A stretch of DNA of 64,000 nt from Ancylobacter amanitiformis (GTDB lineage: Bacteria; Pseudomonadota; Alphaproteobacteria; Rhizobiales; Xanthobacteraceae), in NCBI RefSeq assembly GCF_030814815.1, contig NZ_JAUSVR010000003.1, positions 186,001 through 250,000 on the forward strand, read 5' to 3'. Below are positions 727 to 21,360 of the stretch, one piece after another (within the stretch, counting starts at the first letter, position 1; each line of letters opens with the position of its first letter). The notes under the pieces were generated by a model. That model was not told the origin of the DNA. It saw nothing but the letters and a program-made list of their open reading frames with translations, and did no database searches. A program made the translations under genes and the position numbers.

Positions 727-1623
727 TCAGGCCGCGACGCGCTTGTTGAGCACATCGACCAGCGTCTTGCCGAGGCGCGCGGGGGAGGGGGAGACCACGA
801 TGCCGGCCTCTTCCATCGCCGCGATCTTGTCTTCCGCGCCGCCCTTGCCGCCGGAGATGATCGCGCCGGCATGACCCATGCGACGGCCGGGAGGGGCGGT
901 GCGACCGGCGATGAAGCCGACCATCGGCTTCTTGCGGCCGCGCTTGGCTTCGTCCTTGAGGAACTGCGCCGCATCTTCCTCGGCCGAGCCGCCGATCTCG
1001 CCGATCATCACGATCGATTCGGTGGCGTCATCGGCAAGGAACAGTTCGAGCACGTCGATGAACTCGGTGCCCTTCACCGGATCGCCGCCAATGCCGACCG
1101 CCGTGGTCTGGCCGAGGCCTTCCTGGCTGGTCTGGAACACCGCTTCATAGGTCAGCGTGCCCGAGCGCGAAACGACGCCGACCGAGCCCTTCTTGAAGAT
1201 ATTAGCCGGCATAATGCCGATCTTCGATTCTCCGGCGGTCACGATGCCGGGGCAGTTCGGCCCGATGAGGCGCGACTTCGAGGCGTCGAGCGCGCGGCGC
1301 ACCTTCACCATGTCGAGCACCGGGATACCCTCGGTGATGCACACGATGAGCGGAATCTCGGCGGCGATCGCCTCGAGAATCGCGTCGGCCGCGCCGGGTG
1401 GGGGCACATAGATGACCGAGGCGTCGGCCCCGGTCCTGTCGCGCGCCTCGGCGACGGTGTCGAACACCGGCAGGCCGAGATGGGTGCTGCCGCCCTTGCC
1501 GGGCGAGGTGCCGCCGACGATCTTGGAGCCGTAGGCGAGGGCCTGCTCGGAATGGAACGTGCCGTTCTTGCCGGTGAAGCCCTGGGTAATGATCTTGGTG
1601 TCTTTGGTCAGCAGGACGGACAT
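727..1623 (-). CDS. sucD: Succinate--CoA ligase alpha subunit
   Basis: The 298-residue protein is the CoA-binding, phosphohistidine subunit of succinyl-CoA ligase (succinate + CoA + NTP to succinyl-CoA). The N-terminal CoA-binding Rossmann domain begins [16 protein letters not shown]. The catalytic histidine lies in [10 protein letters not shown] (His251, equivalent to E. coli His246). It overlaps sucC by one base, so the two are translationally coupled. The genes are not beside mdh or sucAB as is common in alphaproteobacteria; they end an operon headed by panE2. This suggests a supply of succinyl-CoA for oxalate activation, or simply relocation of the only TCA copy. A malate thiokinase (MtkB) role is less likely because the sequence reads as ordinary SucD. 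Confidence 0.93.
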
Positions 1624-2822
1624 CAGGCGGCTCCCTTCACGGCCTTGACGATCTTCTGGGCGGCGTCGTCGAGGTCGTCCGCCGGGATGACGTTCAGGCC
1701 GCTGTCGCGGATGATCTGTTTGCCTTCCTCGACATTTGTTCCCTCAAGCCGCACCACCAGCGGAACTTCGAGCCCGACCGCCTTCACCGCGGCGATGACG
1801 CCGCGCGCGATGACGTCGCATTTCATGATGCCGCCGAAGATGTTGACGAGGATGCCCTTCACCTGCGGATCGGAGGTGATGATCTTGAACGCCGCCGTCA
1901 CTTTCTCTTCCGTTGCGCCGCCGCCGACATCCAGGAAGTTGGCCGGCGATTCACCGTAGAGCTGGATGATGTCCAGCGTCGCCATGGCGAGGCCGGCGCC
2001 GTTGACCATGCAGCCGATCGTGCCATCGAGCGCGATATAGGCGAGGTCATACTTGGACGCCTCGATTTCCTTGGCGTCTTCCTCGGTCTCGTCGCGCAGG
2101 GCGACGATATCGGGATGACGGTAGAGCGAGTTCGAATCGAAGGAGATCTTGGCGTCGAGGCACTTCAGCTCGCCGGTCTTGGTCACGACCAGCGGGTTGA
2201 TTTCCAGCATCGCCATGTCCTTGGCGACGAAGGCCTTGTAAAGCTTGTCGACCAGCGCGCCGGCCTGCTTGGCGAGGTCGCCGGTGAGGCCGAGCGCCTG
2301 CGCCACCGTGCGGCCGTGATGGGGCATCACGCCAGTGACGGGGTCGACGGCAAAGGTGTGGATCTTCTCCGGCGTCGAATGCGCGACTTCCTCGATATCC
2401 ATGCCGCCTTCCGTGGAGACCACGAAGGCAACGCGCGAGGTGGCGCGGTCGACCAGCGCCGAGAGGTAGAACTCCTTGTCGATGTCGGAGCCTTCCTCGA
2501 TATAGACGCGGTTGACCTGCTTGCCGGCGGGGCCGGTCTGGATCGTTACCAGCGTCTTGCCGAGAATCTGCTTGGCATTGGCGGCGGCGTCCGCCGCGGA
2601 CTTGACGACGCGCACGCCGCCCTTCTCGCCGGCATCGGCCTCCGTGAACTTGCCCTTGCCGCGACCGCCGGCATGGATCTGGCTCTTCACCACCCACACG
2701 GGGCCGGGAATCTTTGCCGCCGCGTCATCGGCCTCGGCCGCATTCAGGATGGCAATGCCGTTGGGCACCGGGACTCCGAATTCGCGGAGCACTCCCTTTG
2801 CCTGATATTCATGGATATTCAT
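1623..2822 (-). CDS. sucC: Succinate--CoA ligase (ADP-forming) beta subunit
   Basis: The 399-residue length is normal for SucC. The N-terminal ATP-grasp domain carries HAGGRGKG (about residues 51-58), MLEINPLVV marks the metal and nucleotide site, and the C-terminal ligase domain has NFLDVGGGA and LVNIFGGI. It begins at an ATG preceded by GGAGGAGCGGGATTA. It partners with sucD (one-base overlap) in the TCA-cycle ligase. A 113-bp gap separates it from the FAH-family gene upstream and could hold an internal promoter. In this context it could recharge CoA released by the CoA-transferases; that is inference. Confidence 0.93.
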
Positions 2823-2935
2823 TAATCCCGCTCCTCCACAACCGGATGGCCGAGAGGGCGCATGGCGCGAGGCGGCATGGCTCTCCCGTCGATTGGCGTA
2901 TCCTATTTCCCTATAGGCGCAAGCGCGCCAGGACG

Positions 2936-3709
2936 CTACTGCACGAAAGTGTTGCTGAGCGTCCCGATCCCCTCGATCACGATTTCCACCGTGTTGGAGG
3001 GATCCTTCATGGTGCCGACACCGACCGAGGTGCCGCAGCAGATGACATCGCCGGGATTGAGCGTCATGTCATGCGAGATCCGGCTCACCAACTGGCGGGC
3101 GGAGAAGATCATGTCGCTGATCGGGTAGTTCTGGCGTTCCTGCCCGTTGAGCACCGTGCGCACCACCAGGCTGGCCGGGTCGATATCGGTCGCGACCACC
3201 GGACCGAAGGGTCCGAAGCCGTCGAAGCTCTTGGCCCGCACCCACTGGGCGAAGGTGGCGTCCTTGTTGATGATATCGGCGGCGGTGATGTCGTTCACGC
3301 AGGTATAGCCGAAGATGCAGGCGCCGGCTTCCTCCTCGGAGACGCTGCTCGCGCGCGCGCCGATGACGATGCCGAGCTCGCCCTCATAGACCACCTTGCC
3401 GTCATAGGAGGCCGGACGGCGCACCACCGCGCCGGGGCTGGTGAGCGAGGAGCCGGCCTTGAGCAGATAGAGCGGGTCGGCCGGCACGGGCGAGTTGAGC
3501 TTGGCGGCCAGCGCATGGAAATTGTTCCACAGCGCGATGACCTTGGTCGGCTCGGTTGGGGCGAGCAGCGCGACCTCGGAGAGCGCGAGGCGCTCTCCGG
3601 TCGGCTGGGCGCCATTGAACATGTTACCGGTGTGAACGGTGATGGATGCCCCGTCGAGCGTGCCGAAGCCGGTCACGCCCGCGTGGCTGAAACGAACCCA
3701 ATGCGCCAT
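2936..3709 (-). CDS. Fumarylacetoacetate hydrolase-family protein of the oxalate cluster
   Basis: This 257-residue protein is of the FAH/YcgM (FAHD1-like) type. The metal triad is visible as Glu109 and Glu111 ([10 protein letters not shown]) and Asp140 ([10 protein letters not shown]), and the C-terminal [13 protein letters not shown] loop is typical. Family members are acylpyruvate hydrolases, oxaloacetate decarboxylases or diketo-acid hydrolases, all acting on C-C bonds beside a keto acid. It begins 12 bases after the panE2 stop, so it is cotranscribed with the presumed oxalyl-CoA reductase and is likely to act on an oxalate- or glyoxylate-derived metabolite. The true substrate cannot be read from sequence. 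Confidence 0.85.
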
Positions 3710-3721
3710 TGTTAGTCGACT

Positions 3722-4699
3722 CTAGTTATAGCAGCCGGCGATCTGCGCGCGCTGGCGGACCAGGGCGAGCACGATGTCGATGGTGGGGGTCGGGATGCCG
3801 GCGAGGCGACCCATTTCCTGCACAACGGTGACGAGCGGGTCGATCTCCATGGCGCGCGACCGCTCGAGGTCCTGCAGCATGGAGGTCTTGTGCGCGCCCA
3901 CCGCGCCGGCGCCGTCAATGCGGCGCTCGACGCCGACGCGGAAATTGACGCCGGACTGGATGGCGATTTCCTGCGCTTCCAGCATCATCGACTTGGCCAC
4001 CGCGCGGGTGCCGGGATCGGAGGCGATGGTGTCGAGCGTGGCGTGGGTCAGCGCGCTGATCGGGTTGAAGCAGAGGTTGCCCCACAGCTTCAGCCACAAT
4101 TCGTCACGGATGTTGGGCAGCACGGGCGCGCGCATACCGCCGGCGGCGAAGGCGTCCGAGAGCTTGGTCACGCGGTCGGTGATCTCGCCCGAGGGCTCGC
4201 CGAGCGGGAACTTGTCGCCATAGACGTGCTTGATGACGCCCGGCTCGACCACTTCGGTCGCGGGATAGACGATGCAGCCGATGGCGCGCTCCGGACGCAG
4301 GCCATTCCACTGCTTGCCGCCGGGATCGACGCTTTCCAGCGTGCGGCCCTCGAGATGGTCGCCGTGCTTGTAATAGTACCAGTAGGGCACGCCGTTGACG
4401 GCGGTGACGACCGCCGTGTCGTTGCCCAGCAGCGGCTGCATGGCATCGACCACGCCCGGCACCGAATGGCCCTTCAGCGCGACGATGACATAATCCTGCG
4501 GGCCCAGATCGGCCGGATTGTCGGAACAGGGGATGTGCTCGACGCGCTCTTCGCCGTCGATCAACAGCTTGAGGCCGTTGCGCTTCATCGCTTCGAGATG
4601 GGGGCCACGGGCGACCAGGCTGACGTCGACGCCGGCGCGCTTCAACTGAACGCCGACATAGCCGCCGATGGCGCCGGCACCATAGATGCAGACCTTCAT
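3722..4699 (-). CDS. panE2: PanE/ApbA-family reductase, probable oxalyl-CoA reductase
   Basis: The 325-residue protein belongs to the 2-dehydropantoate 2-reductase family. The N-terminal NADP-binding fold starts with GAGAIGGYVG, a lysine sits in VALKGHS (Lys76), and NIRDELWLKLWGN carries the family's catalytic lysine (Lys204). In Methylobacterium extorquens a PanE homologue (PanE2) reduces oxalyl-CoA to glyoxylate, the preferred oxalate assimilation route. Clustering with oxc, frc, oxlT and the glyoxylate carboligase genes supports that role over pantothenate synthesis. The start has a strong AAGGAGG. It heads an operon panE2-FAH-sucC-sucD, with an operator and promoter immediately upstream. 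Confidence 0.82.
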   Translation of the reverse strand: MKVCIYGAGAIGGYVGVQLKRAGVDVSLVARGPHLEAMKRNGLKLLIDGEERVEHIPCSDNPADLGPQDYVIVALKGHSVPGVVDAMQPLLGNDTAVVTAVNGVPYWYYYKHGDHLEGRTLESVDPGGKQWNGLRPERAIGCIVYPATEVVEPGVIKHVYGDKFPLGEPSGEITDRVTKLSDAFAAGGMRAPVLPNIRDELWLKLWGNLCFNPISALTHATLDTIASDPGTRAVAKSMMLEAQEIAIQSGVNFRVGVERRIDGAGAVGAHKTSMLQDLERSRAMEIDPLVTVVQEMGRLAGIPTPTIDIVLALVRQRAQIAGCYN

Positions 4700-4748
4700 G
4701 GGACTCCCTCCTTATGTTCGCGCCAACTCCCGCGTCGGGCGAACCTTG

Positions 4749-4766
4749 TTGGTATTTTGTATGCCA
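4749..4766 (+). promoter_or_regulatory. FCD/GntR operator, site B (panE2 promoter)
   Basis: TTGGTATTTTGTATGCCA differs at one of 18 positions from the site upstream of the gntR-oxc-frc operon. It lies 50-67 bp upstream of the panE2 ATG, directly downstream of the predicted -10, so a bound repressor would cover the transcription start. Confidence 0.75.
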
Positions 4767-4794
4767 TGATTAGGGATGAAAGGGCCCTAGTCAA
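4767..4794 (-). promoter_or_regulatory. Predicted sigma-70 promoter of the panE2 operon
   Basis: On the minus strand, TTGACT (complement of 4789-4794) and TAATCA (complement of 4767-4772) are separated by 16 bp and point toward panE2. The operator abuts the -10. Found by eye only. Confidence 0.5.
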
Positions 4795-5014
4795 GAGCGT
4801 ATGCGGTGGGCGTGATAATACGTCGCGCATGTGAGGCCGCATCGCGGGCTAGGCGGGGCGTGTTTGCGACATGTCTGACAGGTTACGTCGTCAGATGACC
4901 GTTTGTCCACGGTGTATAGGGCAGAACAATTGTCTCTCGGACTACGCAAAAGACTGTCGAGGCAGCGAAAATCCACTATCGTGGCAGCAAGGCTTACTTA
5001 TCTTTCCAAACGAA
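4795..5014. other. Intergenic stretch between glxR and the panE2 promoter
   Basis: I see no gene here. The open frames in this stretch have no ribosome binding site. The stretch completes the roughly 370-bp gap whose other contents are the panE2 promoter and operator on the left and the glxR terminator on the right. Confidence 0.5.
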
Positions 5015-5046
5015 TCGGGGGCGCAATGCGCCCCCGAAGCTCAATC
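5015..5046 (-). terminator. Terminator after the gcl-hyi-glxR operon
   Basis: A perfect 10-bp stem, TCGGGGGCGC pairing with GCGCCCCCGA around a three-base loop (5015-5037), lies downstream of the glxR stop on the minus strand. A moderately T-rich tail (TTCGTTTGG) follows. Confidence 0.7.
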
Positions 5047-5069
5047 AGAATGCCTAATGCGGTGCCGGG

Positions 5070-5960
5070 TCAGGCGTCCGGCGTTACCGTGTGGTTGGCC
5101 AGCAGTTCCAGCGCCTTGACCAGCGCGGAATGGTCCAGCGCGGCGCCACCATGGGCGGCGACCGAGGAGAACAACTGCTGCGCCAGCGCGGTGGAGGGCA
5201 GCGACATCTGCAGCTGGCGCGCGCCGGTGAGCGCGAGGTTCAGGTCCTTCTGGTGCAGCTCGATACGGAAGCCGGGATTGAAGGTACGGTTCACCATGCG
5301 CTCGCCATGTACTTCCAGGATGCGCGAATTGGCGAAGCCGCCCATCAGCGCCTGACGAACCTTGGCCGGATCGGCACCCGCCTTGGACGCGAAGAGCAGC
5401 GCCTCGCCGACGGCGAGAATGTTCAGCGCCACGATGATCTGGTTCGCCACCTTGGTGGTCTGGCCATCGCCATTGCCGCCGACGAGCGTGATGTTCTTGC
5501 CCATCTTCTCGAAAAGCGGCTTCACTGTCTCGAAAGCCGCTTCCGGGCCGCCGACCATGATGGTGAGCGAGGCGGCCTTGGCGCCGACTTCGCCGCCCGA
5601 CACCGGCGCATCGAGATAGTCGCAGCCGAGCGCGTTGATCTTCGCGGCGAATTCCTTGGTCTCGACCGGGGCGATCGACGACATGTCGACGACGATCTTG
5701 CCCGCCGTCAGGCCGGCCGCGATGCCGTTCTCGCCGAACAGCGCGGCGGCCACATGCGGGGTATCCGGCACCATGGTGATGATAATGTCGGCATGGCTGG
5801 CGACTTCGGTGCCGGTGGCGCAGGCGACGCCGCCCTTGCCCGTCAGCTCGGCGGGAATCGGCTTGATGTCATAGAGATAGAGCGTGTGGCCCGCGTCGAT
5901 CAGGTGGCCGGCCATGGGGGTGCCCATGATGCCGAGACCGACAAATCCAACTTTAGCCAT
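5070..5960 (-). CDS. glxR: 2-hydroxy-3-oxopropionate (tartronate semialdehyde) reductase
   Basis: The protein reduces tartronate semialdehyde to D-glycerate with NAD(P)H, the last step of the Gcl branch. Its 296 residues match the beta-hydroxyacid dehydrogenase family. The nucleotide-binding GLGIMGTPMAGHL opens the protein, DAPVSGGEVGA is the substrate loop, and GDGQTTKVANQ carries the catalytic lysine. The start is supported by GAGGA. It is the last gene of gcl-hyi-glxR, 77 bp after hyi, and a hairpin terminator follows. No glycerate kinase is found in the window. Confidence 0.93.
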   Translation of the reverse strand: MAKVGFVGLGIMGTPMAGHLIDAGHTLYLYDIKPIPAELTGKGGVACATGTEVASHADIIITMVPDTPHVAAALFGENGIAAGLTAGKIVVDMSSIAPVETKEFAAKINALGCDYLDAPVSGGEVGAKAASLTIMVGGPEAAFETVKPLFEKMGKNITLVGGNGDGQTTKVANQIIVALNILAVGEALLFASKAGADPAKVRQALMGGFANSRILEVHGERMVNRTFNPGFRIELHQKDLNLALTGARQLQMSLPSTALAQQLFSSVAAHGGAALDHSALVKALELLANHTVTPDA

Positions 5961-6037
5961 CGTCTTTTCCTCGTTTTCCTAGAATGAGTTTCTTGGAATG
6001 CGCCGGTCGAGGCCGCGCGACCTCGACCGGCGTAGCC

Positions 6038-6823
6038 TCACGCCGCGTCGGTGAGGCTCTTCAGCCAGCCGAGGCCGGCCGCGGTCTCGCCCTTGGGCTT
6101 GTATTCGCACCCGACCCAGCCGGCATAGCCGATGGCGTCGAGGTGGCGGAACAGGAAGGGGTAGTTGATCTCGCCGGTGCCCGGCTCATTGCGGCCCGGA
6201 TTGTCGGCAAGCTGGATATGCGCGATGGCGGCCAGGTTGGCCTCGATGGTGCGGGCGAGATCGCCCTCCATGATCTGCATGTGGTAGATGTCGTACTGGA
6301 TGAACAGGTTGTCCGAGCCGACTTCCTCGATGATTGCCTTGGCCTGCTTCGTATAATTCAGGAAGAAACCGGGAATGTCGCGCGTGTTGATCGGCTCGAT
6401 CAGCAGCTTGAGGCCGGCTTCCTGGATGCGCGGAGCAGCGTATTTCAGGTTCTCGACAAAGGTCTTGTGCAGCACGTCGCGCTCGACGCCGACGGGGGCG
6501 ATGCCGGCGAGGATGTTGACCTGCGGGCAGCCCAGCGCGGTGGCGTAGGTGATGGCCTTGTCGACCCCGGCGCGGAACTCGTCCACGCGGTCCGGCAGAA
6601 TGGCGATGCCGCGCTCGCCGCCGCCCCAATTGCCGGCGGGCAGATTGTGCAGCACCTGCTCGAGGTTGTTGTCCTTCAGCTTGGCGACCAGTTCCTCGAC
6701 CGGAAAGTCATAGGGGAAGAGGTACTCGACCCCGGTGAAGCCGGCGCTGGCGGCCTTCTCGAAGCGGTCGAGGAAGGGCACCTCGTTGAACAGCATGGTC
6801 AGATTGGCGGCGAAACGGGGCAT
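6038..6823 (-). CDS. hyi: Hydroxypyruvate isomerase
   Basis: This 261-residue TIM-barrel protein of the Hyi family interconverts hydroxypyruvate and tartronate semialdehyde in the glyoxylate-to-glycerate route. MPRFAANLTMLF at the N-terminus, LLIEPINTRDIPGFF (metal-binding glutamate), QYDIYHMQIMEGDL and GCEYKPKG near the C-terminus (second glutamate) are family hallmarks. AGGAG precedes the ATG. It sits between gcl and glxR on the same strand, the order known from enteric glyoxylate clusters. The 158-bp gap to gcl contains TTCCGCGTTCC on the minus strand, at best a half-site resembling the IclR dyads upstream of gcl. Confidence 0.93.
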   Translation of the reverse strand: MPRFAANLTMLFNEVPFLDRFEKAASAGFTGVEYLFPYDFPVEELVAKLKDNNLEQVLHNLPAGNWGGGERGIAILPDRVDEFRAGVDKAITYATALGCPQVNILAGIAPVGVERDVLHKTFVENLKYAAPRIQEAGLKLLIEPINTRDIPGFFLNYTKQAKAIIEEVGSDNLFIQYDIYHMQIMEGDLARTIEANLAAIAHIQLADNPGRNEPGTGEINYPFLFRHLDAIGYAGWVGCEYKPKGETAAGLGWLKSLTDAA

Positions 6824-6981
6824 GGACCGCTCCTGGGCTGAGTTTGATTGTTTATGGAACGCGGAACCCGCCGCGTGCGGCAGGCCCTCGCGACGATAGG
6901 GGCATACTCACCCTGACGATGGCATGAAAGCGCCAGAGATTCCCGCGACGCCGGGGGCGCCGCGGTCTCGAAAGGCGCCGC

Positions 6982-8748
6982 TCACGCCGGCTCGGTGGCG
7001 CTGGGCAGCGGCAGGTCGAGCACGTCCTCGAACTCGTTGACGGCGTCGATCTCCACACCCATGGCGATGTTGGTGACGCGCTCGAGGATGAACTCCATCA
7101 CCACCGGCACCTGATGCTCGGCCATCAGCGCCTTGGCGCGGGTGAAGGCGTCCTTGAACTCGTTGGGCGAGGACACGCGCACCGCCTTGCAGCCGAGGCC
7201 CTCGGCCACCGCGACATGATCGACGCCGTAGCCGGCATTCTCGGCGGCGTTGATGTTGTCGAAGGCGAGCGAAACCTCGAAATCCATGTTGAAGCCGCGC
7301 TGCGCCTGACGGATCAGCCCGAGATAGGAGTTGTTCACGACCACGTGGATGTAGGGCAGCTTGTGCTGGGCGCCGACCGCCAGTTCCTCGATGAGGAACT
7401 GGAAATCGTAGTCGCCCGACAGCGCCACGATCTCGGCATCCGGGTCCGCGGCGCGCACGCCGAGCGCCGCCGGCAGGGTCCAGCCGAGCGGGCCGGCCTG
7501 GCCGCAATTGATCCAGTTGCGCGGCTTGTAGACGTGGAGCATCTGCGCGCCGGCGATCTGGCTGAGGCCGATGGTCGAGACGTAGCGGGTGTCCCGGCCG
7601 AAGGCTTCGTTCATCTCTTCATAGACGCGCTGGGGCTTGAGCGGCACGTTGTCGTAATGCGTCTTGCGCAGCATGGTCTGCTTGCGGCCGAGGCATTCCC
7701 CGGCCCAGGCCGCGCGGTCCTTCAGCGTGCCGGCGGCCTTGTATTCCTTGGCCACCTCGATGAAGAGCTGCAGCGCCGCCTTGGCATCCGACACGATGCC
7801 GAGATCCGGGCCGAACACGCGGCCGATCTGGGTCGGCTCGATGTCGACATGGATGAATTTGCGGCCCTTGGTGTAGACGTCGACCGAGCCGGTATGGCGG
7901 TTCGCCCAGCGATTGCCGATGCCGAACACGAAGTCCGAGGCCAGCATCGTCGCGTTGCCGTAGCGGTGCGATGTCTGCAGGCCGCACATGCCGGCCATCA
8001 GGTCGTGATCGTCCGGGATGGTGCCCCAGCCCATCAGGGTCGGAATGACCGGCACGCCGGTGAGTTCGGCGAACTCGACCAGCAGGTCGGACGCGTCCGC
8101 GTTGATGATGCCGCCGCCCGAGACGATGAGCGGACGCTCCGCCTCGTTCAGCATGGCAATGGCCTTTTCGGCCTGCTTGCGGGTGAGCTTGGGCTTGTAG
8201 ACTTCCAGCGGCTCGTAGGTGTCCTCGTCGAACTCGATTTCGGCGAGTTGGACGTCGATCGGCAGGTCGATCAGCACCGGGCCGGGACGGCCGGAGCGCA
8301 TGACATGGAAGGCCTGCTGGAACACCATCGGCACCAGGGCCGGCTCGCGGACCATGACGGCCCATTTGGCGAGCGGCTTGGCGATCGATTCGATGTCGAC
8401 GGCCTGGAAGTCTTCCTTGTAGAGGCGCGCGCGCGGCGCCTGGCCGGTAATGCACAGGATCGGGATCGAATCGGCGGCAGCCGAATAGAGGCCGGTGATC
8501 ATGTCGGTGCCGGCCGGCCCGGAGGTGCCGATGCACACGCCGATATTGCCCGGCTTGGCGCGGGTGTAACCCTCGGCCATGTGGGAGGCGGCCTCGACAT
8601 GACGCGCGAGGATGTGACGGGTTTTCCCGTGGGCGCGCATGGCGGAATAGAACGGATTGATCGCGGCACCCGGGACACCGAAGGCGACGGTGACGCCTTC
8701 CTTCTCGAGAACGCGGATCGCGGCATCGACGGCACGCATCTTGGCCAT
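6982..8748 (-). CDS. gcl: Glyoxylate carboligase (tartronate-semialdehyde synthase)
   Basis: This ThDP-dependent enzyme condenses two glyoxylates to tartronate semialdehyde and CO2. At 588 residues it is close to E. coli Gcl. The decisive residue is Val51 in [15 protein letters not shown]: almost all ThDP enzymes have glutamate there (RHE), and Gcl is the known exception with valine at the same number. The C-terminal [17 protein letters not shown] is the ThDP/Mg site. I chose the ATG at 8748 because AGGAGGA lies just upstream and the family motif begins ten residues later; a longer in-frame reading exists but would cross the promoter. It is divergent from iclR. Confidence 0.95.
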
Positions 8749-8917: not shown

Positions 8918-8934
8918 TTCCCGCAATGCGGGAT
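8918..8934. promoter_or_regulatory. IclR-type operator 1
   Basis: TTCCCGCAATGCGGGAT is an inverted repeat (TCCCGCAaTGCGGGA core) nearly identical to the copy at 8975-8991. Confidence 0.6.
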
Positions 8935-8937
8935 GAA

Positions 8938-8955: not shown

Positions 8956-8974
8956 ACATGCCACGCTCCTCGCA

Positions 8975-8991
8975 TTTCCGCAATACGGGAT
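8975..8991. promoter_or_regulatory. IclR-type operator 3
   Basis: TTTCCGCAATACGGGAT matches operator 1 at 15 of 17 positions, spaced 57 bp from it and about 100 bp before the iclR start. Confidence 0.6.
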
Positions 8992-9094
8992 ATATTTCTG
9001 GTTTGCGAAAAAATCGGAGATGCGCCTTTATGCTGAGGCGGCCTCCCGAACGACCGATGGCATAAGCAACATGCGGACGGACGGAGGGTGTGGG

Positions 9095-9937
9095 ATGGAA
9101 GACGCGGGAGAAGACATGCCGACCACCGACGCCGTCTCGACGACACGCCGCCGTGGCCGCCCCTCCGGCGGGGGAGCCGAGACGGGCGGCGAGGTGCAGT
9201 CGCTCGATCGTGCCATCGCGCTGCTCGAAGTGCTCGCCCGGTCCGATGGGCTGACACTGAGCGAGGTGGCCCGCGCGGCGGAACTGCCGACCTCCACCGT
9301 GCACCGCCTGCTCACCACGCTGGAGCGTCGCGGCCTGGTGGGGCACGATGCCTCGACCGGGCAATGGATGGTTGGGCTCGGGCTGTTCCGCGTCGGCTCG
9401 GCTTACCTGCGCATCCGCAAATTGCCGGAAATCGGCCGCGTATTGCTGCGCGAACTTTCGCATGGCGTCGACGAGACCGTGAATCTCTCGCTCATCGACG
9501 GGCCGCATCTCATCTGCGTGGCGCAGGTGGAAAGCCACGCGGCGGTGCGCGCCTTCTTCCGCATCGGGGGGGATCTGCCGATCCATGCCTCGGGCGGCGG
9601 CAAGGCGATCCTCGCGGCGATGAACCCGGAGGCGCGGCGCGCCTGGCTCGGGGGCGACCAGCTGCCGCGCTATACCGAGCACACCCATGTCAGCCGGCGG
9701 GCCTTGCAGGCCGATCTCGCGGATATCGCGACGCGCGGCTTCGCCATTGATGACGAGGAGCACACGCCCGGCATGCGCTGCGTCGCCGCCGCCGTGCTGG
9801 ACGAGTGGCGCGAGCCGGTCGGCGCCATCTCGATCTCCGCGCCCACCGTGCGCATGTCGCCCGAGCGCATCGTGGATCTCGGCGCAAAGGTGAAGGATGC
9901 CGCGCGCCGGCTCACCATGCGCTATTCCGGGCTTTGA
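9095..9937 (+). CDS. IclR-family regulator of the glyoxylate genes
   Basis: The 280-residue regulator has an N-terminal winged helix (VQSLDRAIALLEVLARSDGLTLSEVARAAELPTSTVHRL begins the domain) and a C-terminal IclR effector domain ending in GAISISAPTVRMSPERI. IclR proteins beside gcl (AllR/GclR type) are often controlled by glyoxylate or related two-carbon ligands; by analogy this one likely represses gcl-hyi-glxR and itself through the three dyads upstream. I chose ATG 9095 for its GGAGGG at 9083-9088; ATGs at 9071 and 9116 are alternatives. An RRRGRPS stretch precedes the DNA-binding domain. Confidence 0.88.
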   Translation: MEDAGEDMPTTDAVSTTRRRGRPSGGGAETGGEVQSLDRAIALLEVLARSDGLTLSEVARAAELPTSTVHRLLTTLERRGLVGHDASTGQWMVGLGLFRVGSAYLRIRKLPEIGRVLLRELSHGVDETVNLSLIDGPHLICVAQVESHAAVRAFFRIGGDLPIHASGGGKAILAAMNPEARRAWLGGDQLPRYTEHTHVSRRALQADLADIATRGFAIDDEEHTPGMRCVAAAVLDEWREPVGAISISAPTVRMSPERIVDLGAKVKDAARRLTMRYSGL

Positions 9938-12381: not shown

Positions 12382-12385
12382 GATT

Positions 12386-13663: not shown

Positions 13664-13723
13664 GGCATTTCCTCTCGAGGTGATTCGACGTTTTTCCGTC
13701 GCTTTTTTGTTGGCTGCGGTAAT

Positions 13724-13759
13724 GGGACGGGCGGGGCGGGGAGACCTCCCGCCCGTCCC
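13724..13759 (-). other. GC-rich hairpin between oxc and frc-2
   Basis: GGGACGGGCGGG pairs with CCCGCCCGTCCC (12 bp, perfect) just downstream of the oxc stop. On the minus strand no T tract follows, so this is likely a stability element or partial terminator that sets the oxc:frc-2 ratio. Confidence 0.6.
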
Positions 13760-13765
13760 CGTGAC

Positions 13766-15505
13766 TTACTTCTTCTTGACGATGCTCTGCGGGTTGAGGC
13801 TGCCGATATTGCCGCTCTCGCTGCCGGCGGCCGGGTCGATCACCGCGTTGATGAGCGCGGGCTTGCCCGAGTTCATCGCCTCGTCGACGGCCTTCTTCAG
13901 CTCGTCGGGGGTGGTGACGTGGTAGCCGGCGCCGCCGAAGGCTTCCATCATCTTGTCGTAGCGGCTGTCCTTCACGAACACGGTCGTGCCGGGGTCGCGG
14001 CCGGTCGGGTCGGTGTCGAGGCCGCGATAGATGCCGTTATTGTTGAAGATGACGATGGTGACGGGCAGTTCGTAGCGGCAGATGGTCTCGACTTCCATGC
14101 CGGAGAAGCCGAAGGCCGAATCACCCTCGACCGCCAGCACCGGCTTGCCGGTCTCGACCGCCGCGCCGATGGCGTAGCCCATGCCGATGCCCATCACGCC
14201 CCAGGTGCCGACATCGAGGCGCTTGCGCGGCTCGTACATGTCGATGACGCCGCGGGCGAGGTCGAGCGTGTTGGCGCCCTCGTTGACCAGGATCGCGTCC
14301 GGGCGCTCCTTGATGACCTGCTTCAGCGCGCCGAGCGCCGAGTGGAAGTCCATCGGGGTGGAATTCTTGAGCAGGCGCTGCGACATCTTGCCGATGTTCA
14401 CTTCCTTGCGCGCCTTGATCTCGTTGATCCAGCTGGCCGGGGGAGCCTGCCAGCCGGAGGACACGCCGGCATTGAGCGCGGCGACCACCGAGCCGATGTC
14501 GCCGACCAGCGGCGCCACGATCTCGACGTTCGAATCCATTTCCTTCGGCTCGATGTCGATCTGGATGAACTTCTTCGGAGCGTCGCCCCAGGTCTTGCCC
14601 TTGCCGTGCGACAGCAGCCAGTTGAGGCGCGCGCCGATCAGCAGCACGACGTCCGAATCCTTCAGAACGGTCGAGCGCGCGGCGCCGGCCGACTGGGGAT
14701 GGGTGTCGGGCAGCAGGCCCTTGGCCATCGACATCGGCAAGAAGGGAATGCCGGTCGTCTCGATGAAGGAGCGGATTTCCTCGTCGGCCTGCGCGTAGGC
14801 GGCGCCCTTGCCGAGGATGATGAGCGGCTTCTTGGCCGACTTCAGCACGTCCAGCGCGCGATCGAGAGCGGCCTTGGAGGGGATCTGCTCCGGGGCGGCG
14901 TCGATCACCTTGACGAGCGACTTGGCGCCGGCATCGGCGTCCATCACCTGCGAGAACAGCTTGGCCGGCAGGTCGAGATAGACGCCGCCGGGGCGGCCGG
15001 ACACCGCCGCGCGGATGGCGCGAGCCACGCCGATGCCGATATCGGCGGCGTGCAGCACGCGGAAGGCGGCCTTGCACAGCGGCTTGGCGATGGCGAGCTG
15101 GTCCATCTCCTCATAGTCGCCCTGCTGCAGGTCGACGATCTCGCGCTCGGACGAGCCGGAGATGAGGATCATCGGGAAGCAGTTGGTGGTGGCGTTGGCC
15201 AGCGCCGTCAGGCCGTTGAGGAAGCCGGGCGCCGATACCGTGAGGCAGATGCCGGGCTTCTTCGTGAGAAAGCCGGCAATGGCGGCGGCGTTGCCCGCGT
15301 TCTGCTCGTGGCGGAACGAGATGACGCGAATGCCCTCGGCCTGCGCCATGCGTCCCAGATCCGTGATCGGAATGCCGGGCACGCCGTAGATCGTCTCGAT
15401 ACCGTTAAGTTTAAGTGCATCAATGACGAGGTGGAAGCCGTCGGTGAGCTCCTGCTCGGTCTCGGCGGCTGCGTTTACGTCGATCACTTGTGCGACTGCG
15501 GACAT
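13766..15505 (-). CDS. oxc: Oxalyl-CoA decarboxylase
   Basis: This ThDP enzyme converts oxalyl-CoA to formyl-CoA and CO2, regenerating the CoA donor for Frc. At 579 residues it is slightly longer than Oxalobacter (568) and E. coli (564) Oxc. [10 protein letters not shown] carries the ThDP-activating glutamate (Glu67), and [20 protein letters not shown] is the metal-diphosphate motif. ATG 15505 has GGAGG upstream; a start seven codons earlier is less well placed. Only about 40 bp separate it from the gntR-1 stop, so the two are probably cotranscribed from the operator-bearing promoter at 16.3 kb. Confidence 0.95.
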
Positions 15506-15548
15506 CCCGTATTCCCTCCCAAACATTCCTTCGGCGGGTTTTGCCGCC

Positions 15549-16274
15549 CTAATCTAACTGTACGTGGCTCTCGACATGCCGCGCGAGCCGGAGCGTGTGG
15601 TCTCGCACCAGACGCTCGGCGCGGTCCGCGTCCCGCGCCTCGAGTGCCGAGATGATCTCGCGATGGTCGGCCGCCGAACGTTGCGCCCGGTCCATCTCGA
15701 AGATCGTTCGATGGCGGATGGCCCGTACATGAAAGAACAGGTTGTCCGTCATCGCCGCGAGCAGGCTGGAGCCGCTCAGCCGGATCAGCGCCTGGTGAAA
15801 CGCGATATTCGCACCCGAATATTCGTCACACCGGTCACGCTCGATCCGCGAGAGGTCGAACTCCTTGAACAAGGCCCTCAGTTCGGCGATCGCCTCGTCG
15901 CTCGCGCGCTGAGTGGCGAGGCGTGCCGCCATGCTTTCCAGTGCCGCCCAGGCCTCGATCATCTCGATGATCTCGGCTTTCGAGCGGCGAACCACCATTA
16001 TGCCCCGCCTCGGGACCGCGCGGAGCAGGCCTTCCTGCTCAAGCATCGCGACCGCCTCGCGGACGGGCGTCCGGCTTGCGCCCAGACGCTCGGAAATATC
16101 CCGCTCATCAAGCAGCATCGGCTCATCCGAGCCGTAAATATTCATGTTGGTGATGGCTTCCTTGAGTGCGGCGTAGGCCTTGCTCTTGAAGCTCTCCTTG
16201 GCTGGCAGGCGTTCGATGGTCAGACCATGGTCTCCACCGTGCCAGCGCTTGCTCACAATTTCCTTGCTGCTCAC
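15549..16274 (-). CDS. FCD-domain GntR-family regulator 1 (oxalate operon)
   Basis: The 241-residue protein has a GntR winged helix ([31 protein letters not shown]) followed by an all-helical FCD ligand domain with metal-site histidines ([29 protein letters not shown]). It leads the operon gntR-oxc-frc and has a near-perfect operator 45-62 bp upstream, which suggests autoregulation and control of oxalate genes, probably relieved by oxalate or a CoA/glyoxylate product. Two GTG codons are possible starts: the one at 16280 abuts AAAGGA, while that at 16274 has proper spacing and is chosen. It is paralogous to regulator 2. Confidence 0.9.
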
Positions 16275-16318
16275 GGACACTCCTTTGCGGAAGCTCCGCC
16301 CGCGGATGCTGAGGAATT

Positions 16319-16336
16319 TGGCATACCAAATACCAA
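16319..16336 (-). promoter_or_regulatory. FCD/GntR operator, site C (gntR-oxc-frc promoter)
   Basis: Read on the minus strand it is TTGGTATTTGGTATGCCA, one mismatch from site B. A -35-like TTGACA (complement of 16339-16344) is immediately upstream, so the operator fills the promoter spacer. Confidence 0.78.
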
Positions 16337-16816: not shown

Positions 16817-17518
16817 TCAGGAGGGGAACCGGCCGTGCTTCTCCACATGGGCGGCGAGGCCGAGCGTGTGCTCGCGCACGAGGCGTTCGGCAAGGTCCGC
16901 GTCGCGCGCGACCAGCGCGGCGATGATCGCCCGGTGCTCCTGCAGCGAGCGCTCGGAGCGGTTTTCCTGGCGCACCGATACCGCGCGGATGCCGCGAATA
17001 TGGATGAACAGGTTCTCCGTCATCTCGCCGATCATCGCGCAGCCGGAGAGGCGAATGACGGTCTGGTGGAAGCGGATATTGGCGTCCGAGTATTCGTTCA
17101 TGTGCTCGGCCGGGGCGCCCGGCTCGAAATCGTGGAACATCTCGCGCAGGCTGGCCAGATCGCGATCCGTGGCGCGGGCGGCCGCCAGCCGGGCGGCCAT
17201 GCTCTCCAGCGCGGCCCAGACGATGATCATGTCGATGATCTCGCGCTTGGATTTGCGCACCACGAAGATGCCGCGCCGCGGTACCGAGCGCACGAAGCCT
17301 TCTTGCTCCAGCACGGTGAGCGCCTCGCGAATGGGCGTGCGGCTGACGCCGAGATCCTGCGACAATTGGCGCTCGTCCAGCCGGATCTCGCTCTCCTGGC
17401 CATACATGTCCATCTCGGTGATGGCTTTCTTGATGGCGTCATAGGCAAGGGTCCGCAGGCTGGTATTCGCGGCGAGCGGCGCGATGTTCAGGCGGGTATG
17501 GGGATCGGCGCTTTCCAC
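16817..17518 (-). CDS. FCD-domain GntR-family regulator 2
   Basis: The 233-residue protein is a clear paralogue of regulator 1, with the same architecture: winged helix (IRLDERQLSQDLGVSRTPIREALTVLEQEGFVRSVPRRGIFVVRKS) then an FCD domain (FHQTVIRLSG, LQEHRAIIAAL, VREHTLGLAAHVEKHG). It starts at GTG 17518, which has AGGA five bases upstream; a GTG at 17560 is poorer. It is divergent from oxlT-1 across a 537-bp AT-richer region. Two paralogues side by side suggest separate ligand or target control of transport and catabolism, or a heterodimer. Confidence 0.88.
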   Translation of the reverse strand: MESADPHTRLNIAPLAANTSLRTLAYDAIKKAITEMDMYGQESEIRLDERQLSQDLGVSRTPIREALTVLEQEGFVRSVPRRGIFVVRKSKREIIDMIIVWAALESMAARLAAARATDRDLASLREMFHDFEPGAPAEHMNEYSDANIRFHQTVIRLSGCAMIGEMTENLFIHIRGIRAVSVRQENRSERSLQEHRAIIAALVARDADLAERLVREHTLGLAAHVEKHGRFPS

Positions 17519-18055
17519 GGGCTTCCTCGTCGGTCCAGTACATTCTTGTTGTTGACGCACCTCACGGCGGGAAGCGGGTCTGGCTGTCCGTCGAAGCGAT
17601 GCATGGCCGTTCTCGCGTGATTCTCAGGTCACCCGGTTCGGCTCGGCAGCGTTATATAACATATACTGGATGTCCATCGCGCCGCCGTTTCGGCCGCGCT
17701 GGCCCTCGTTCGGGCCTCGCACGCAGCTCTTTTCCCGCTCCGAACACCATCGGGCTCGTCCGTGCCCGTCCCCGCCCGTCTCCAGCCGGCCGCGCGGTCG
17801 GCGCGGGTGCGTCTCCGTGACTTCCCATAGGTAAGCAATATTCAAGTATTCCCTTGGGGAAGATGACCTTGCGTAATATTCAGTCCACATATTTATGGAT
17901 GGCTGGTATGCAAAATTTTGCATAATCAGAAAAACATAGTATGTTCCCCAGCAGTCATGGGGTGGTGCCCTTGCGTGGGGTTCGCGCAGAGGGCGAGCTC
18001 GTCAAGAAAAACAATAAGACTGACATTCATTACTATGGAAACGCGCGAGGAAAAA
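17519..18055. promoter_or_regulatory. gntR-2 / oxlT-1 divergent control region
   Basis: No gene is supported in these 537 bp; one 99-codon minus frame lacks family resemblance and a ribosome site. The region is AT-richer than its surroundings and has a 16-bp palindrome (17908-17923), a TATATAACATATACTGG segment (17653-17669) loosely resembling the operator, and repeated AATATTCA at about 17843 and 17875. Confidence 0.55.
17904..17923. promoter_or_regulatory. Palindrome with GntR half-site upstream of oxlT-1
   Basis: TGGTATGCAAAATTTTGCAT contains the TGGTATGC half-site of the cluster operator and a perfect 16-bp dyad ATGCAAAATTTTGCAT (17908-17923). It lies about 130 bp before the oxlT-1 start. 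Its spacing differs from sites A-C. Confidence 0.5.
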
Positions 18056-19357
18056 ATGACATCTGACGCAACGTCATCCTTGAATAGGACCCGTTGGCTC
18101 CAGCTGGTATTCGGCGTGATCTGCATGTGCATGATCGCGAACATGCAGTATGGCTGGACGTTCTTCGTGAACCCGATGCAGGAACGCCACGGCTGGGACC
18201 GTGCCGCGATTCAGGTCGCGTTCTCGATCTTCATCGTCACCGAGACCTGGCTGGTGCCGGTCGAGGGTTGGTTCGTCGATAAATACGGCCCGCGCATCGT
18301 CGTGCTGTTCGGCGGCGTGTTCTGCGGCCTTGCCTGGGTGCTGAATTCCTACGCCACCTCGCTGACGACGCTGTACATCGCGGCGGCGCTGGGCGGCATT
18401 GGCGCGGGCGCGGTCTACGGCACCTGCGTCGGCAACTCGCTCAAGTGGTTCCCGGATCGTCGCGGCCTTGCCGCCGGCATTACCGCGGCCGGCTTCGGCG
18501 CGGGCTCGGCGCTGACCGTGATTCCGATCCAGAACATGATCAAGAATCAGGGCTACGAGGCGGCGTTCTTCTATTTCGGCCTCGGCCAGGGCATCGTGAT
18601 AACCGTTCTGGCGCTGTTCCTGATGGCGCCGAAGAAGGCGCAGATCGCGGCCGTGGCGGCCAAGGTCGCCGCCAGCGTCAAGCAGTCCGTGCGTGAGTTC
18701 ACGCCCAAGGAAATGCTGACCACCCCGCTATTCTGGGTCATGTATGCGATGTTCGTCATGATGGCCGCCGGCGGCCTGATGGCGACCGCCCAGCTCGGCC
18801 CGATCGCCAAGGATTTCGGCATCGCCGACATCCCGGTCAGCCTGATCGGCATCACCCTGCCGGCGCTCACCTTCGCCGCCGCGATCGACCGCGTGCTGAA
18901 CGGCCTCACCCGCCCGTTCTTCGGCTGGGTGTCGGACCAGATCGGCCGCGAGAACACGATGTTCGTGGCCTTCGCCATCGAGGGCGTCGGCATCTACGCG
19001 CTCAGCGTGCTCGGCCAAAACCCGGTGATGTTCGTCATCCTCACCGGCCTCGTGTTCTTCGCCTGGGGCGAGATCTACTCGCTGTTCCCCGCCATGTGCG
19101 GCGACGCCTTCGGCTCGAAGTTCGCCACCACCAATGCCGGCCTGCTCTATACCGCCAAGGGCACGGCGGCGCTGATCGTGCCGTTCACCAGCATCATCAC
19201 CACGATGACGGGCAGCTGGCACGCGGTGTTCATCATCGCGGCGGCGCTCAACATCATTGCCGCCGTCATGGCGCTCGCGGTGCTCAAGCCGCTGGCATCC
19301 TCCCACGGCAAGCGCGCCCGCGCGCAGGGGGCGACGAAGCCGGTCGCGGCCGAATAA
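18056..19357 (+). CDS. oxlT: Oxalate/formate antiporter, MFS family (copy 1)
   Basis: The 433-residue protein has 12 predicted membrane segments and exchanges external oxalate for internal formate at the inner membrane. It has the MFS loop FPDRRGLAAG and the charged residues that bind oxalate in Oxalobacter OxlT: an arginine in NGLTRPFFGW (OxlT Arg272) and a lysine in LLYTAKGTAAL (OxlT Lys355). ATG 18056 is chosen because GCGAGG lies five bases upstream; a frame extension to 17918 would run through the promoter palindrome. A strong terminator follows, so it is monocistronic. Confidence 0.92.
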   Translation: MTSDATSSLNRTRWLQLVFGVICMCMIANMQYGWTFFVNPMQERHGWDRAAIQVAFSIFIVTETWLVPVEGWFVDKYGPRIVVLFGGVFCGLAWVLNSYATSLTTLYIAAALGGIGAGAVYGTCVGNSLKWFPDRRGLAAGITAAGFGAGSALTVIPIQNMIKNQGYEAAFFYFGLGQGIVITVLALFLMAPKKAQIAAVAAKVAASVKQSVREFTPKEMLTTPLFWVMYAMFVMMAAGGLMATAQLGPIAKDFGIADIPVSLIGITLPALTFAAAIDRVLNGLTRPFFGWVSDQIGRENTMFVAFAIEGVGIYALSVLGQNPVMFVILTGLVFFAWGEIYSLFPAMCGDAFGSKFATTNAGLLYTAKGTAALIVPFTSIITTMTGSWHAVFIIAAALNIIAAVMALAVLKPLASSHGKRARAQGATKPVAAE

Positions 19358-19383
19358 GCCGCCCGATCCATCACCCGGCCTTC

Positions 19384-19415
19384 AAGGGCGCGCCGCGAGG
19401 CGCGCCCTTTTTGTT
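19384..19415 (+). terminator. Terminator of oxlT-1
   Basis: GGGCGCGCC-GCGA-GGCGCGCCC (19386-19407) is a perfect 9-bp stem with a tetraloop followed by TTTTTGTTTG. Confidence 0.93.
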
Positions 19416-20022
19416 TGTCCGGAGGACGCGGATCGGCTCGTCCGAAGGGCGCCGCGCGGTCCGTTTTGCACCCGTTCATAGAAACGTGAACGTAAATTTC
19501 ATGCGATCCATGCGCCCTCCAGTGATCAGGGTGCAGATGGAGAGATGTGGTGAAACAGTGCGCGTTGGGATTTTTGCTCGGTTATTCCTTTGGGTTAACT
19601 TTCATACTTTCGTCGAAATCGTAGATGGCGCGCAGCGTAAGCCGCCGAATAGTGGTGCATAGATTTCCGATAACGATGTTGTGCGCTGCAATATCGAATA
19701 TTTATACGTTGCCTTACGCTGCTGTATAACCTTCACAAATGCGATTGGCATACATAATATTGTGGATTATGCTTCAGCATTAAGCGGGTCGGGTCCAACG
19801 CCCCTGCGTCAATCCAGGCTGCCTTTGGCGGGGGATGACGGAGCGGGCCGAGGGAGCCGCACAACCTATTTGGAACGGACACGCCGCCCGAGCGGCCGCT
19901 GGGGGAGGGAAGGTTCCGCCCCTGGCCAACGAACAGCCGGCGCACGGCCCCCCGAGGGCTGCAGCGACCGCAACAACAAGCCGATCCGCGGCGAATATTG
20001 ATTAGGGATTAGGAGAGCGCCC
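19416..20022. other. Leader region upstream of oxlT-2
   Basis: About 600 bp with no supported gene. The first half is AT-rich and carries site G and a promoter. The remaining 250 bp form a long 5' leader before the TTG start and could hold further control that I cannot define. Confidence 0.5.
19745..19773 (+). promoter_or_regulatory. Predicted oxlT-2 promoter overlapping operator site G
   Basis: TTGGCA (19745-19750) and TATGCT (19768-19773) are spaced by 17 bp. The operator at 19746-19763 covers the -35 and spacer. On the minus strand it reads ACAATATTATGTATGCCA, matching 13 of 18 positions of site B with the right half fully conserved. Confidence 0.5.
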
Positions 20023-21360
20023 TTGAGCACGTATACCCCCACGCCGGCGGCCCTCGGGCCCGGCAAGGACTTTTCCGAAAGCCGCCGCTGGCTGCAGCTG
20101 GTCGTCGGCGTCGTCTGCATGGTGGCGACCGCCAACATCCAGTACGCCTGGACCCTGTTCGTTCCCGAGATCCAGCAGACCTTCGGCTGGGAACGCGCCT
20201 CGATCCAGATCGCCTTCACCATCTTCGTGCTGGTGCAGACCTGGCTCGCGCCCATCGAGGGCTTCTTCATCGACAAGTTCGGCCCGCGCCTGATGGTGGC
20301 GTTCGGCGCGCTGTTCATCGGCACCGCCTGGGTCATCAACTCGCAGGCCACCTCGCTGTTCGGCTTCTATGTCGGCGCGGCGATCGGCGGCATCGGCGTC
20401 GGCTCGATCTACGCGACCTGCATCAACAACGCGCTGAAGTGGTTCCCGGACCGTCGCGGCCTCGCCGTCGGCCTCACCGCGGGCGGCTATGGCGCGGGTT
20501 CCGCCGCCACCATCCTGCCCATCGCGGCGATGATCGAATCGTCGGGCTTCCAGGAAACCTTCTTCTTCTTCGGCCTGCTGCAGGGCGGTCTCGCCTTCGT
20601 CGCGGCGTGGTTCCTGCGCTCGCCCAAGGCCGGCCAGGTGAAGGCGTCCGACAAGCTCAACCAGAGCCGTCGCGACTACACGCTGAAGGAAGCGCTGAAC
20701 ACCAAGCTGTTCTGGCTGATGTTCCTCATGTTCATCTGCGTCGTCACCGGCGGCATGATGGCTGTCGCCCAGCTCGGCGTCATCGCGCAGGATCTCGGCG
20801 TGAAGGAGTTCAAGGTCGACCTGTACTTCTTCGTCATGGCCGCCCTGCCGCTCGCCCTGATGCTCGACCGCGTCATGAACGGCATCTCGCGTCCGCTGTT
20901 CGGCTGGATCTCCGACCATATCGGCCGTGAGAAGACCATGGTTATCGCCTTCACCCTCGAAGGCCTCGGCATCATCGCGCTCGGCGCCTTCGGCCACAAT
21001 CCGTGGGCGTTCCTGATCCTGTCCGGCGTCGTGTTCCTGGCCTGGGGCGAAGTCTACTCGCTGTTCTCGGCGCTGGCCGGCGACGCCTTCGGCACCAAGC
21101 ATATCGGCAAGATCTACGGCGTGCTGTACACCGCCAAGGGTATCGGCGCGCTGTTCGTGCCGGTCGGCAACCTGCTGATGGAGGCCACCGGCACCTGGTC
21201 GACCGTGCTCTATACGGTCGCGGGCATGGACCTGTTCGCCGCCTTCCTGGCCATCGCGGTGCTGCCGCGTGTGTTCAAGGCTCATGTCGCCCGGTCCGGA
21301 GGCGTGGCGTCGCCGCCGTCGCCGCTCGGCCCGAAGGGTGCGGCCCAGGCCCACGCCTGA
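20023..21360 (+). CDS. oxlT: Oxalate/formate antiporter, MFS family (copy 2)
   Basis: This 445-residue paralogue of copy 1 has 12 membrane segments. It keeps FPDRRGLAVG, the arginine in NGISRPLFGW and the lysine in VLYTAKGIGAL that contact oxalate in OxlT, and a longer Pro/Gly/Ser C-tail. The start is TTG 20023 with AGGAG seven bases upstream; rare-start use may limit synthesis. A second porter may differ in affinity or favour the reverse reaction (formate or other dicarboxylate). A terminator follows directly. Confidence 0.9.
   Translation: MSTYTPTPAALGPGKDFSESRRWLQLVVGVVCMVATANIQYAWTLFVPEIQQTFGWERASIQIAFTIFVLVQTWLAPIEGFFIDKFGPRLMVAFGALFIGTAWVINSQATSLFGFYVGAAIGGIGVGSIYATCINNALKWFPDRRGLAVGLTAGGYGAGSAATILPIAAMIESSGFQETFFFFGLLQGGLAFVAAWFLRSPKAGQVKASDKLNQSRRDYTLKEALNTKLFWLMFLMFICVVTGGMMAVAQLGVIAQDLGVKEFKVDLYFFVMAALPLALMLDRVMNGISRPLFGWISDHIGREKTMVIAFTLEGLGIIALGAFGHNPWAFLILSGVVFLAWGEVYSLFSALAGDAFGTKHIGKIYGVLYTAKGIGALFVPVGNLLMEATGTWSTVLYTVAGMDLFAAFLAIAVLPRVFKAHVARSGGVASPPSPLGPKGAAQAHA

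Follow-up and report, generated by a model that had tools for sequence, protein, structure and literature searches.

An oxalate locus of Ancylobacter that includes the succinyl-CoA synthetase genes, and a proposed role for them in recharging the pathway

Gene content and conservation of the oxalate locus

The stretch of DNA considered here is a 64-kb window of the 4.84-Mb genome of Ancylobacter amanitiformis (G000:C3:186001-250000), in which positions 727 to 21360 hold a contiguous set of genes for the predicted transport, breakdown and assimilation of oxalate, together with sucC and sucD, the genes for the beta and alpha subunits of succinyl-coenzyme A (CoA) synthetase (Table 1). All of the enzymes that a preliminary description of this DNA had named are borne out by NCBIfam and Pfam profile scores as intact, contiguous open reading frames (ORFs); the four signalling proteins that it listed come down to three regulators, one of the IclR and two of the GntR family. 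Gene content also supports its proposal that one locus combines a dissimilatory route (OxlT, Frc, Oxc) with an assimilatory one (PanE and Gcl-Hyi-GlxR). Frc, Oxc and OxlT all score over curated NCBIfam cut-offs, which completes the gene set for oxalate dissimilation, and a formate dehydrogenase is encoded elsewhere in the genome, outside the locus. The glycerate pathway set of Gcl, Hyi and tartronate semialdehyde reductase is present, with the kinase step falling to a PF13660 protein encoded elsewhere (C3:61926), PF13660 being presumably a glycerate-kinase family. The starts of Gcl and OxlT1 are probably at 8748 and about 18056, respectively, rather than at the starts of the longest ORFs.

The oxalate block is a genus-wide trait of Ancylobacter, found in all 30 genomes of the genus that were sampled, seven of them split by contig ends. 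Distances taken from the coordinates of search matches place PanE within 4 kb of SucC and Gcl within 10 kb of Oxc in every genome, and PanE within 6 kb of Gcl in 23, the two lying on separate contigs in the remaining seven. Because this linkage is kept across 30 genomes, the clustering is not attributable to chance. The genes panE, FAH and sucC are colinear throughout, with FAH directly after panE and a gap of 101-190 bp between FAH and sucC; an FAH-family gene also follows panE in many other loci. Draft assemblies break at hyi/glxR (about window positions 5000-6900) in seven of the 30 genomes (G007, G014, G017, G020, G024, G025, G029), and overlap of a repeat was rejected as the cause, as the contig ends share no 20-mer in the six genomes compared. 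Outside the genus, G042 has Gcl far from PanE, G035 carries the two on different contigs, and in G045, G052 and G053 they lie no more than 30 kb apart.

Table 1. Features of the oxalate locus and its flank, in window coordinates. Paired scores are NCBIfam bit score/curated cut-off.
Feature	Position	Strand	Basis
GntR-type palindrome GGCATTAGGTATACC, beyond sucD, upstream of 42-amino-acid ORF	303..317	+	Pattern search
Small unannotated ORF, 42 amino acids, one hydrophobic stretch, converging on sucD	377..505	+	
sucD, succinyl-CoA synthetase alpha	727..1623	-	NF004230 456/336 bits; GHAGA and IGEIG motifs
sucC, succinyl-CoA synthetase beta	1623..2822	-	581/370 bits; sole SucC-family gene found in genome
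FAH-family protein	2936..3709	-	PF01557 and PF10370 (Rv2993c-like N-terminus) over Pfam cut-offs; under every NCBIfam cut-off
panE, proposed oxalyl-CoA reductase (PanE2/ApbA2 type)	3722..4699	-	523/223 bits
GntR-type palindrome, panE upstream	4751..4765	+	GGCATACAAAATACC in 30/30 Ancylobacter, -60 to -72
Second conserved block AGAACAATTGTCT, panE upstream region	4923..4935	+	Aligned gap
glxR, tartronate semialdehyde reductase	5070..5960	-	TIGR01505 405/341 bits
hyi, hydroxypyruvate isomerase type	6038..6823	-	TIGR03234 397 bits; NF043033 2-oxo-tetronate isomerase 399/325 bits
gcl, glyoxylate carboligase, 588 amino acids from conserved start	6982..8748	-	TIGR01504 1180/711 bits
Two IclR-type palindromes between gcl and iclR	8918-8935, 8975-8992	+	Sequence pattern
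iclR, IclR-family regulator near BhcR	9095..9937 (start inferred)	+	Over Pfam cut-off; BhcR-type score 298 bits, below 350 cut-off
frc2, formyl-CoA:oxalate CoA-transferase, YfdW-like, GGGGQ loop	10377..11627	-	727/504 bits
frc1, second Frc, SGGGQ loop	12386..13663	-	725/504 bits
oxc, oxalyl-CoA decarboxylase	13766..15526	-	TIGR03254 1027/739 bits
gntR1, GntR/FCD-family regulator	15549..16280	-	PF00392 and PF07729, over Pfam cut-offs only
Overlapping GntR-type palindromes, gntR1-oxc-frc1 upstream	16313..16334	+	Pattern in 5/5 Ancylobacter with region examined
gntR2, GntR/FCD-family regulator	16817..17560	-	PF00392 and PF07729, over Pfam cut-offs only
oxlT1, oxalate/formate antiporter	18056..19357 (start inferred)	+	TIGR04259 671/335 bits
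oxlT2, oxalate/formate antiporter	20023..21360	+	TIGR04259 581/335 bits

PanE and the upstream regions of the locus

Kinship and linkage to oxalate genes are the grounds on which PanE is proposed to be an oxalyl-CoA reductase of the PanE2/ApbA2 type. Its best named match, at 99% identity, is from A. tetraedralis (L076), and the first 13 named matches (93-99%) comprise nine from Ancylobacter, three from Xanthobacteraceae and one labelled Bosea sp. 117. Homologues of Cupriavidus and Pandoraea that lie near frc and oxc are 70-78% identical (those of Cupriavidus 70-73%), a comparison made with these homologues and not with the ApbA2 and PanE2 sequences themselves. On a PanE tree of 97 rows, the protein falls among homologues that are mostly linked to oxalate genes, those of Cupriavidus included. 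In 70 of the rows, oxc, frc or oxlT lies no more than 12 kb away, and this label requires 13 changes, the mean over shuffles being 23.6, a clustering that near-copies help and that was read from a short tree search with modest support.

It is very improbable that PanE serves the cell as ketopantoate reductase in pantothenate synthesis and is placed here by chance. The protein is the only one in the genome over the TIGR00745 (apbA_panE) cut-off, which weighs against the oxalyl-CoA reductase assignment and makes a pantothenate role conceivable; its NCBIfam subfamily is named for that role, and its nearest solved sequence, 3ghy, is entered as a 'ketopantoate reductase protein'. The clustered linkage to oxalate genes among its homologues speaks against such a role, as does the occurrence upstream of panE, in all 30 genomes, of the palindrome that precedes gntR1-oxc-frc1. 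A family member, ApbA2 of Cupriavidus necator H16, was found by similarity to panE2 of Methylobacterium extorquens, is encoded near frc-oxc, and is described as necessary for normal growth on oxalate (PMC7486775). In three loci of other genera, L102 (Rhizobiales YIM 77505), L115 and L120 (two Alsobacter), panE occurs with gcl and iclR, and in L102 and L120 with hyi too; frc and oxc were not seen in the stretch retrieved around panE in these three.

The window has five copies of the palindrome in question, GGNATN5ATNCC, against 1.02 expected, a count that was reached by one of 100 shuffles. One site lies upstream of panE, two overlapping sites lie upstream of gntR1-oxc-frc1, one is beyond sucD, and one is at 40966. 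Because this GntR-type palindrome is common to panE and gntR1-oxc-frc1, panE appears to be tied to the oxalate genes by regulation, presumably through a regulator of the GntR type. Of 17 Ancylobacter genomes examined, 14 have the palindrome in the 900 bp beyond sucD and three lack it. In loci of other genera, it precedes gntR1-type genes in 13 of 43 cases and panE in 16 of 93, counts in which several cases come from close strains or from the same genome twice; a rough control in those genera gave 0/47 upstream of frc1, 1/39 upstream of oxc and 1/44 upstream of FAH. Among the gcl upstream regions of Ancylobacter, 10 of 12 contain the IclR-type box; among those of other genera, with either orientation counted, one of nine does.

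When aligned, the gap between glxR and panE (window 4700-5069) has the character of an upstream region that contains conserved blocks. Its length is 366-374 bp in 23 of the 27 Ancylobacter genomes in which both ends are visible, and it contains several further conserved blocks besides the palindrome, among them ACAATTGT and CGCGACGT. A known RNA was considered and rejected, as an Rfam search of window positions 1-24000 gave no match at the gathering score and, in the gap, sub-threshold matches only. At the other end of the locus, the 42-amino-acid ORF that converges on sucD is present in all 17 Ancylobacter genomes examined (of the 30) at 53-100% identity. Changes at its third codon position run at 0.49, compared with 0.20 and 0.16 at the other two (11 ungapped rows), and it has no Pfam match; it is possibly a small membrane protein that belongs to the oxalate regulon.

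Succinyl-CoA synthetase genes beside panE

The preliminary description had overlooked that no SucC other than that of the oxalate locus was found in the genome, and that this SucCD looks like the housekeeping enzyme. A SucC search of the genome (E<=1e-30) gave this single match, SucD not being searched on its own, and 28 of the 30 Ancylobacter genomes likewise have one SucC-family match, with a second in G003 (37% identity) and G029 (35%). In related Hyphomicrobiales, sucC and sucD are part of an mdh-sucC-sucD-sucA-sucB operon, and mdh adjoins sucC in all 19 of the non-genus genomes retrieved (of 71 available). In A. amanitiformis, by contrast, mdh, sucA, sucB and lpd (the last two identified from gene position and from matches in relatives) are on another contig, with sucA directly after mdh. 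The same order of mdh then sucA is kept in 30/30 Ancylobacter genomes, separated by 232-367 bp in 28 and by about 1.3 kb in two, and no sucC or sucD match lies between them in any, so that the mdh-sucCDAB arrangement is absent and sucC is found instead in the oxalate block.

A tree of 48 joined SucC-SucD rows places the 17 Ancylobacter rows in one clade (100/99) that nests (100/95) with the mdh-operon copies of G042, G035, G079 and G070 and with a PanE-linked copy from Propylenella, whereas a separate clade unites the oxalate-linked SucCD of Afipia, Bradyrhizobium, G045 and G053. The Ancylobacter proteins are over cut-off with conserved motifs, and these motifs are the same as in the mdh-operon copies. 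The single SucC, the mdh-sucA operon without sucCD, and the tree placement with mdh-operon copies suggest that the sucCD of Ancylobacter is the housekeeping pair, relocated to the oxalate locus; a copy from a near relative may instead have replaced it. Two other identities were rejected: a paralogue dedicated to the locus, given the single SucC match and the grouping apart from the oxalate-linked copies of Afipia and Bradyrhizobium, and a direct oxalyl-CoA ligase, given a motif that is that of the mdh-operon copies.

A rearrangement may simply have parked housekeeping genes beside panE-FAH, leaving SucCD a bystander that serves the tricarboxylic acid (TCA) cycle only, from a promoter of its own. 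This account, which we regard as rather unlikely, agrees with the resemblance of SucCD to the housekeeping pair by tree and motif, and a single event could explain the whole genus. It also agrees with a conserved block in the FAH-sucC gap, since the 101-190 bp ahead of sucCD may hold a separate promoter, such as a TCA gene would require; co-transcription of panE-FAH-sucC and a separate sucCD promoter are both possible. It is harder to reconcile with the linkage kept in all 30 Ancylobacter genomes and with the finding that the stretch around panE encodes a canonical-motif SucCD in Afipia, a Bradyrhizobium, Propylenella, Cupriavidus pauculus and Cupriavidus sp. D384. The same holds for G045 and G053, the two genomes in which other copies were sought, both of which have a second SucC elsewhere.

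The proximity of the two genes is also above chance outside the genus. A SucC-type gene lies within 12 kb of PanE in seven of 34 non-genus PanE-bearing genomes (gaps of 1.1-11.7 kb) against 0.395 expected from random placement, an expectation without correction for relatedness or contig breaks, and both SucC and SucD are present in the retrieved stretch of nine of 67 named non-Ancylobacter loci (L091, L108, L122, L128, L131, L142, L151, L153 and L154, with L128 and G045 representing the same genome). Only three of the seven are canonical SucCD (G045, G047 and G053), one of them 11.7 kb from PanE, and the G047 copy is cut by a contig end and stands outside the tree. These few cases, uncorrected for relatedness, weigh against a role of SucCD in the oxalate pathway, as does the finding that the other four neighbours (G039, G044, G094 and G096) are a divergent ligase in other gene contexts.

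That divergent SucC-type protein is 33-39% identical and has a GGGMQxCDT motif in place of that of the mdh-operon copies. In G039 and G044 it is preceded by genes for a BhcA-like glyoxylate aminotransferase and for a 2-hydroxyacid dehydrogenase, with serine hydroxymethyltransferase as well in G044, a different design from the Ancylobacter block. A row of BhcA-like aminotransferase, panE, 2-hydroxyacid dehydrogenase and a divergent SucC/SucD-type ligase is carried by two other genomes of the same bacterial family (L068 6148-12919 and L067 7795-13355), preceded in L068 by serine hydroxymethyltransferase; the ligase of these loci may be an ADP-forming oxalyl-CoA ligase.

A proposed recharging role and its relation to known systems

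The best explanation of these observations, in which we place modest confidence, is that the oxalate locus of Ancylobacter has taken in what is apparently the only succinyl-CoA synthetase of the cell, an enzyme that would serve there to recharge the pathway. OxlT1 and OxlT2 would bring oxalate in and formate out. Frc would transfer CoA from formyl-CoA onto oxalate and Oxc would convert oxalyl-CoA to formyl-CoA and CO2, with formate used for energy. In the biomass arm, PanE would reduce oxalyl-CoA to glyoxylate, Gcl would join two glyoxylates and GlxR would give glycerate, with Hyi serving a hydroxypyruvate side branch. As oxalyl-CoA is an analogue of a 2-oxoacid, an enzyme of the PanE fold could plausibly reduce it without a cysteine, and the product would be a hemithioacetal, which would fall apart to give glyoxylate and CoA. 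The Frc/Oxc cycle would only circulate CoA, making no net thioester. Reduction of oxalyl-CoA for biomass would drain this cycle: PanE withdraws oxalyl-CoA and frees CoA, so that one thioester would be lost per glyoxylate and an acyl-CoA source that uses adenosine triphosphate (ATP) would be needed. SucCD, encoded just downstream of panE-FAH, could replace the thioester by making succinyl-CoA at the cost of one ATP, and a Frc-type transferase, one of the two or another, would move the CoA of succinyl-CoA to oxalate (EC 2.8.3.2 activity).

Several points weigh against this recharging role, beginning with the choice of transferase. Frc2 closely matches YfdW in its GGGGQ loop, and Frc1 has SGGGQPGR and GFRDG. 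The tryptophan-to-arginine changes of Frc1 were considered as a mark of succinyl-CoA use and rejected: the same residues are present in 40 of 93 Frc sequences, other genera included, and 23 of the loci with Frc1-type residues show only the Frc1-type gene in the retrieved stretch, so that these residues do not assign a substrate. The oxalate CoA-transferases YfdE and UctC are reported to have given no product with succinyl-CoA and oxalate (PMC3720670); Frc1 and Frc2 belong to a different subgroup from these two, and each scores above the cut-off for formyl-CoA transferases. The genome encodes two more CoA-transferases of the family at other sites, neither of which reaches any NCBIfam cut-off. 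Recharging could instead proceed from acetyl-CoA or by an AMP-forming oxalyl-CoA synthetase. In its fullest form the proposal is a tentative one, held at less than even confidence: that the genus has placed its only TCA-cycle succinyl-CoA synthetase in the oxalate locus, that ATP-driven succinyl-CoA pays for the thioester of PanE by way of a Frc paralogue, and that the locus includes an undescribed, probably membrane-spanning protein of 42 amino acids behind a palindrome of the same type.

It is improbable, in our judgement, that the enzyme set has a role other than growth on oxalate. The genome encodes RuBisCO, and in Pseudomonas fluorescens under aluminium stress, an acylating glyoxylate dehydrogenase, an oxalate CoA-transferase and a succinyl-CoA synthetase are described as converting glyoxylate to oxalate and ATP (PMC2752808), which would allow the set to run toward oxalate. 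The same three activities link oxalyl-CoA, succinyl-CoA and ATP in that system, which makes it a biochemical precedent for the proposed recharging, though in the opposite direction; the passages considered give no gene block. Two OxlT antiporters and the palindrome common to panE and gntR1-oxc-frc1 fit growth on oxalate better, and in C. necator deletion of apbA2 slows growth on oxalate, while the oxalyl-CoA route is reported to have no part in phosphoglycolate salvage (PMC7486775).

The combined pathway itself is not new, having already been shown by C. necator mutants. C. necator H16 is reported to use Frc/Oxc, ApbA2 (a PanE2 homologue) and Gcl-Hyi-Tsr for oxalate, the same enzymes in the same order of steps as in the Ancylobacter locus; deletion of gcl-hyi2-tsr had an effect like that of apbA2, and deletion of frc-oxc abolished growth on oxalate (PMC7486775). 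A 2026 survey also draws oxalate assimilation by way of oxalyl-CoA reductase and Gcl (PMC12927642). The organization differs, in that gcl-hyi2-tsr and frc-oxc are separate operons in C. necator, with apbA2 near frc-oxc and SucCD unmentioned in the parts of that report drawn on here (PMC7486775), and one block with a single SucCD in Ancylobacter.

An Ancylobacter locus that bypasses the serine cycle, as the preliminary description had it, finds no support, since the genome has no second SucC- or MtkA-type subunit (E<=1e-30) and encodes RuBisCO. In Methylobacterium extorquens, PanE2 is said to be a PanE-family oxalyl-CoA reductase that works beside Frc/Oxc dissimilation and feeds a variant of the serine cycle. 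In Ancylobacter, on the other hand, glyoxylate would go to Gcl, and a search for malate-CoA ligase of the MtkA type returned the locus copy as the sole SucC-family match, at the same threshold and with other serine-cycle enzymes left unsearched. SucC matches at 47-54% identity in other genomes are those that we take to be MtkA. Counting against our view of the serine cycle, a complete serine pathway is reported for Starkeya novella, a member of the genus (PMC3797975), which is also listed as growing on oxalate (PMC3570799).

The placement of sucCD inside an oxalate locus was not named in titles or abstract openings among the matches listed, a search with most subscription journals outside its scope. 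Work by Chandra and Shethna in 1977 on Thiobacillus novellus may already describe the enzymes with which this genus grows on oxalate. A practical caution follows for annotation, as SucCD found inside a gene cluster may turn out to be the housekeeping enzyme. If SucCD does pay for the thioesters withdrawn by PanE, gene position would have tied a TCA-cycle enzyme to a niche substrate, and growth on oxalate would depend on SucCD. The use of oxalate by soil bacteria bears in turn on carbon storage through the oxalate-carbonate pathway.

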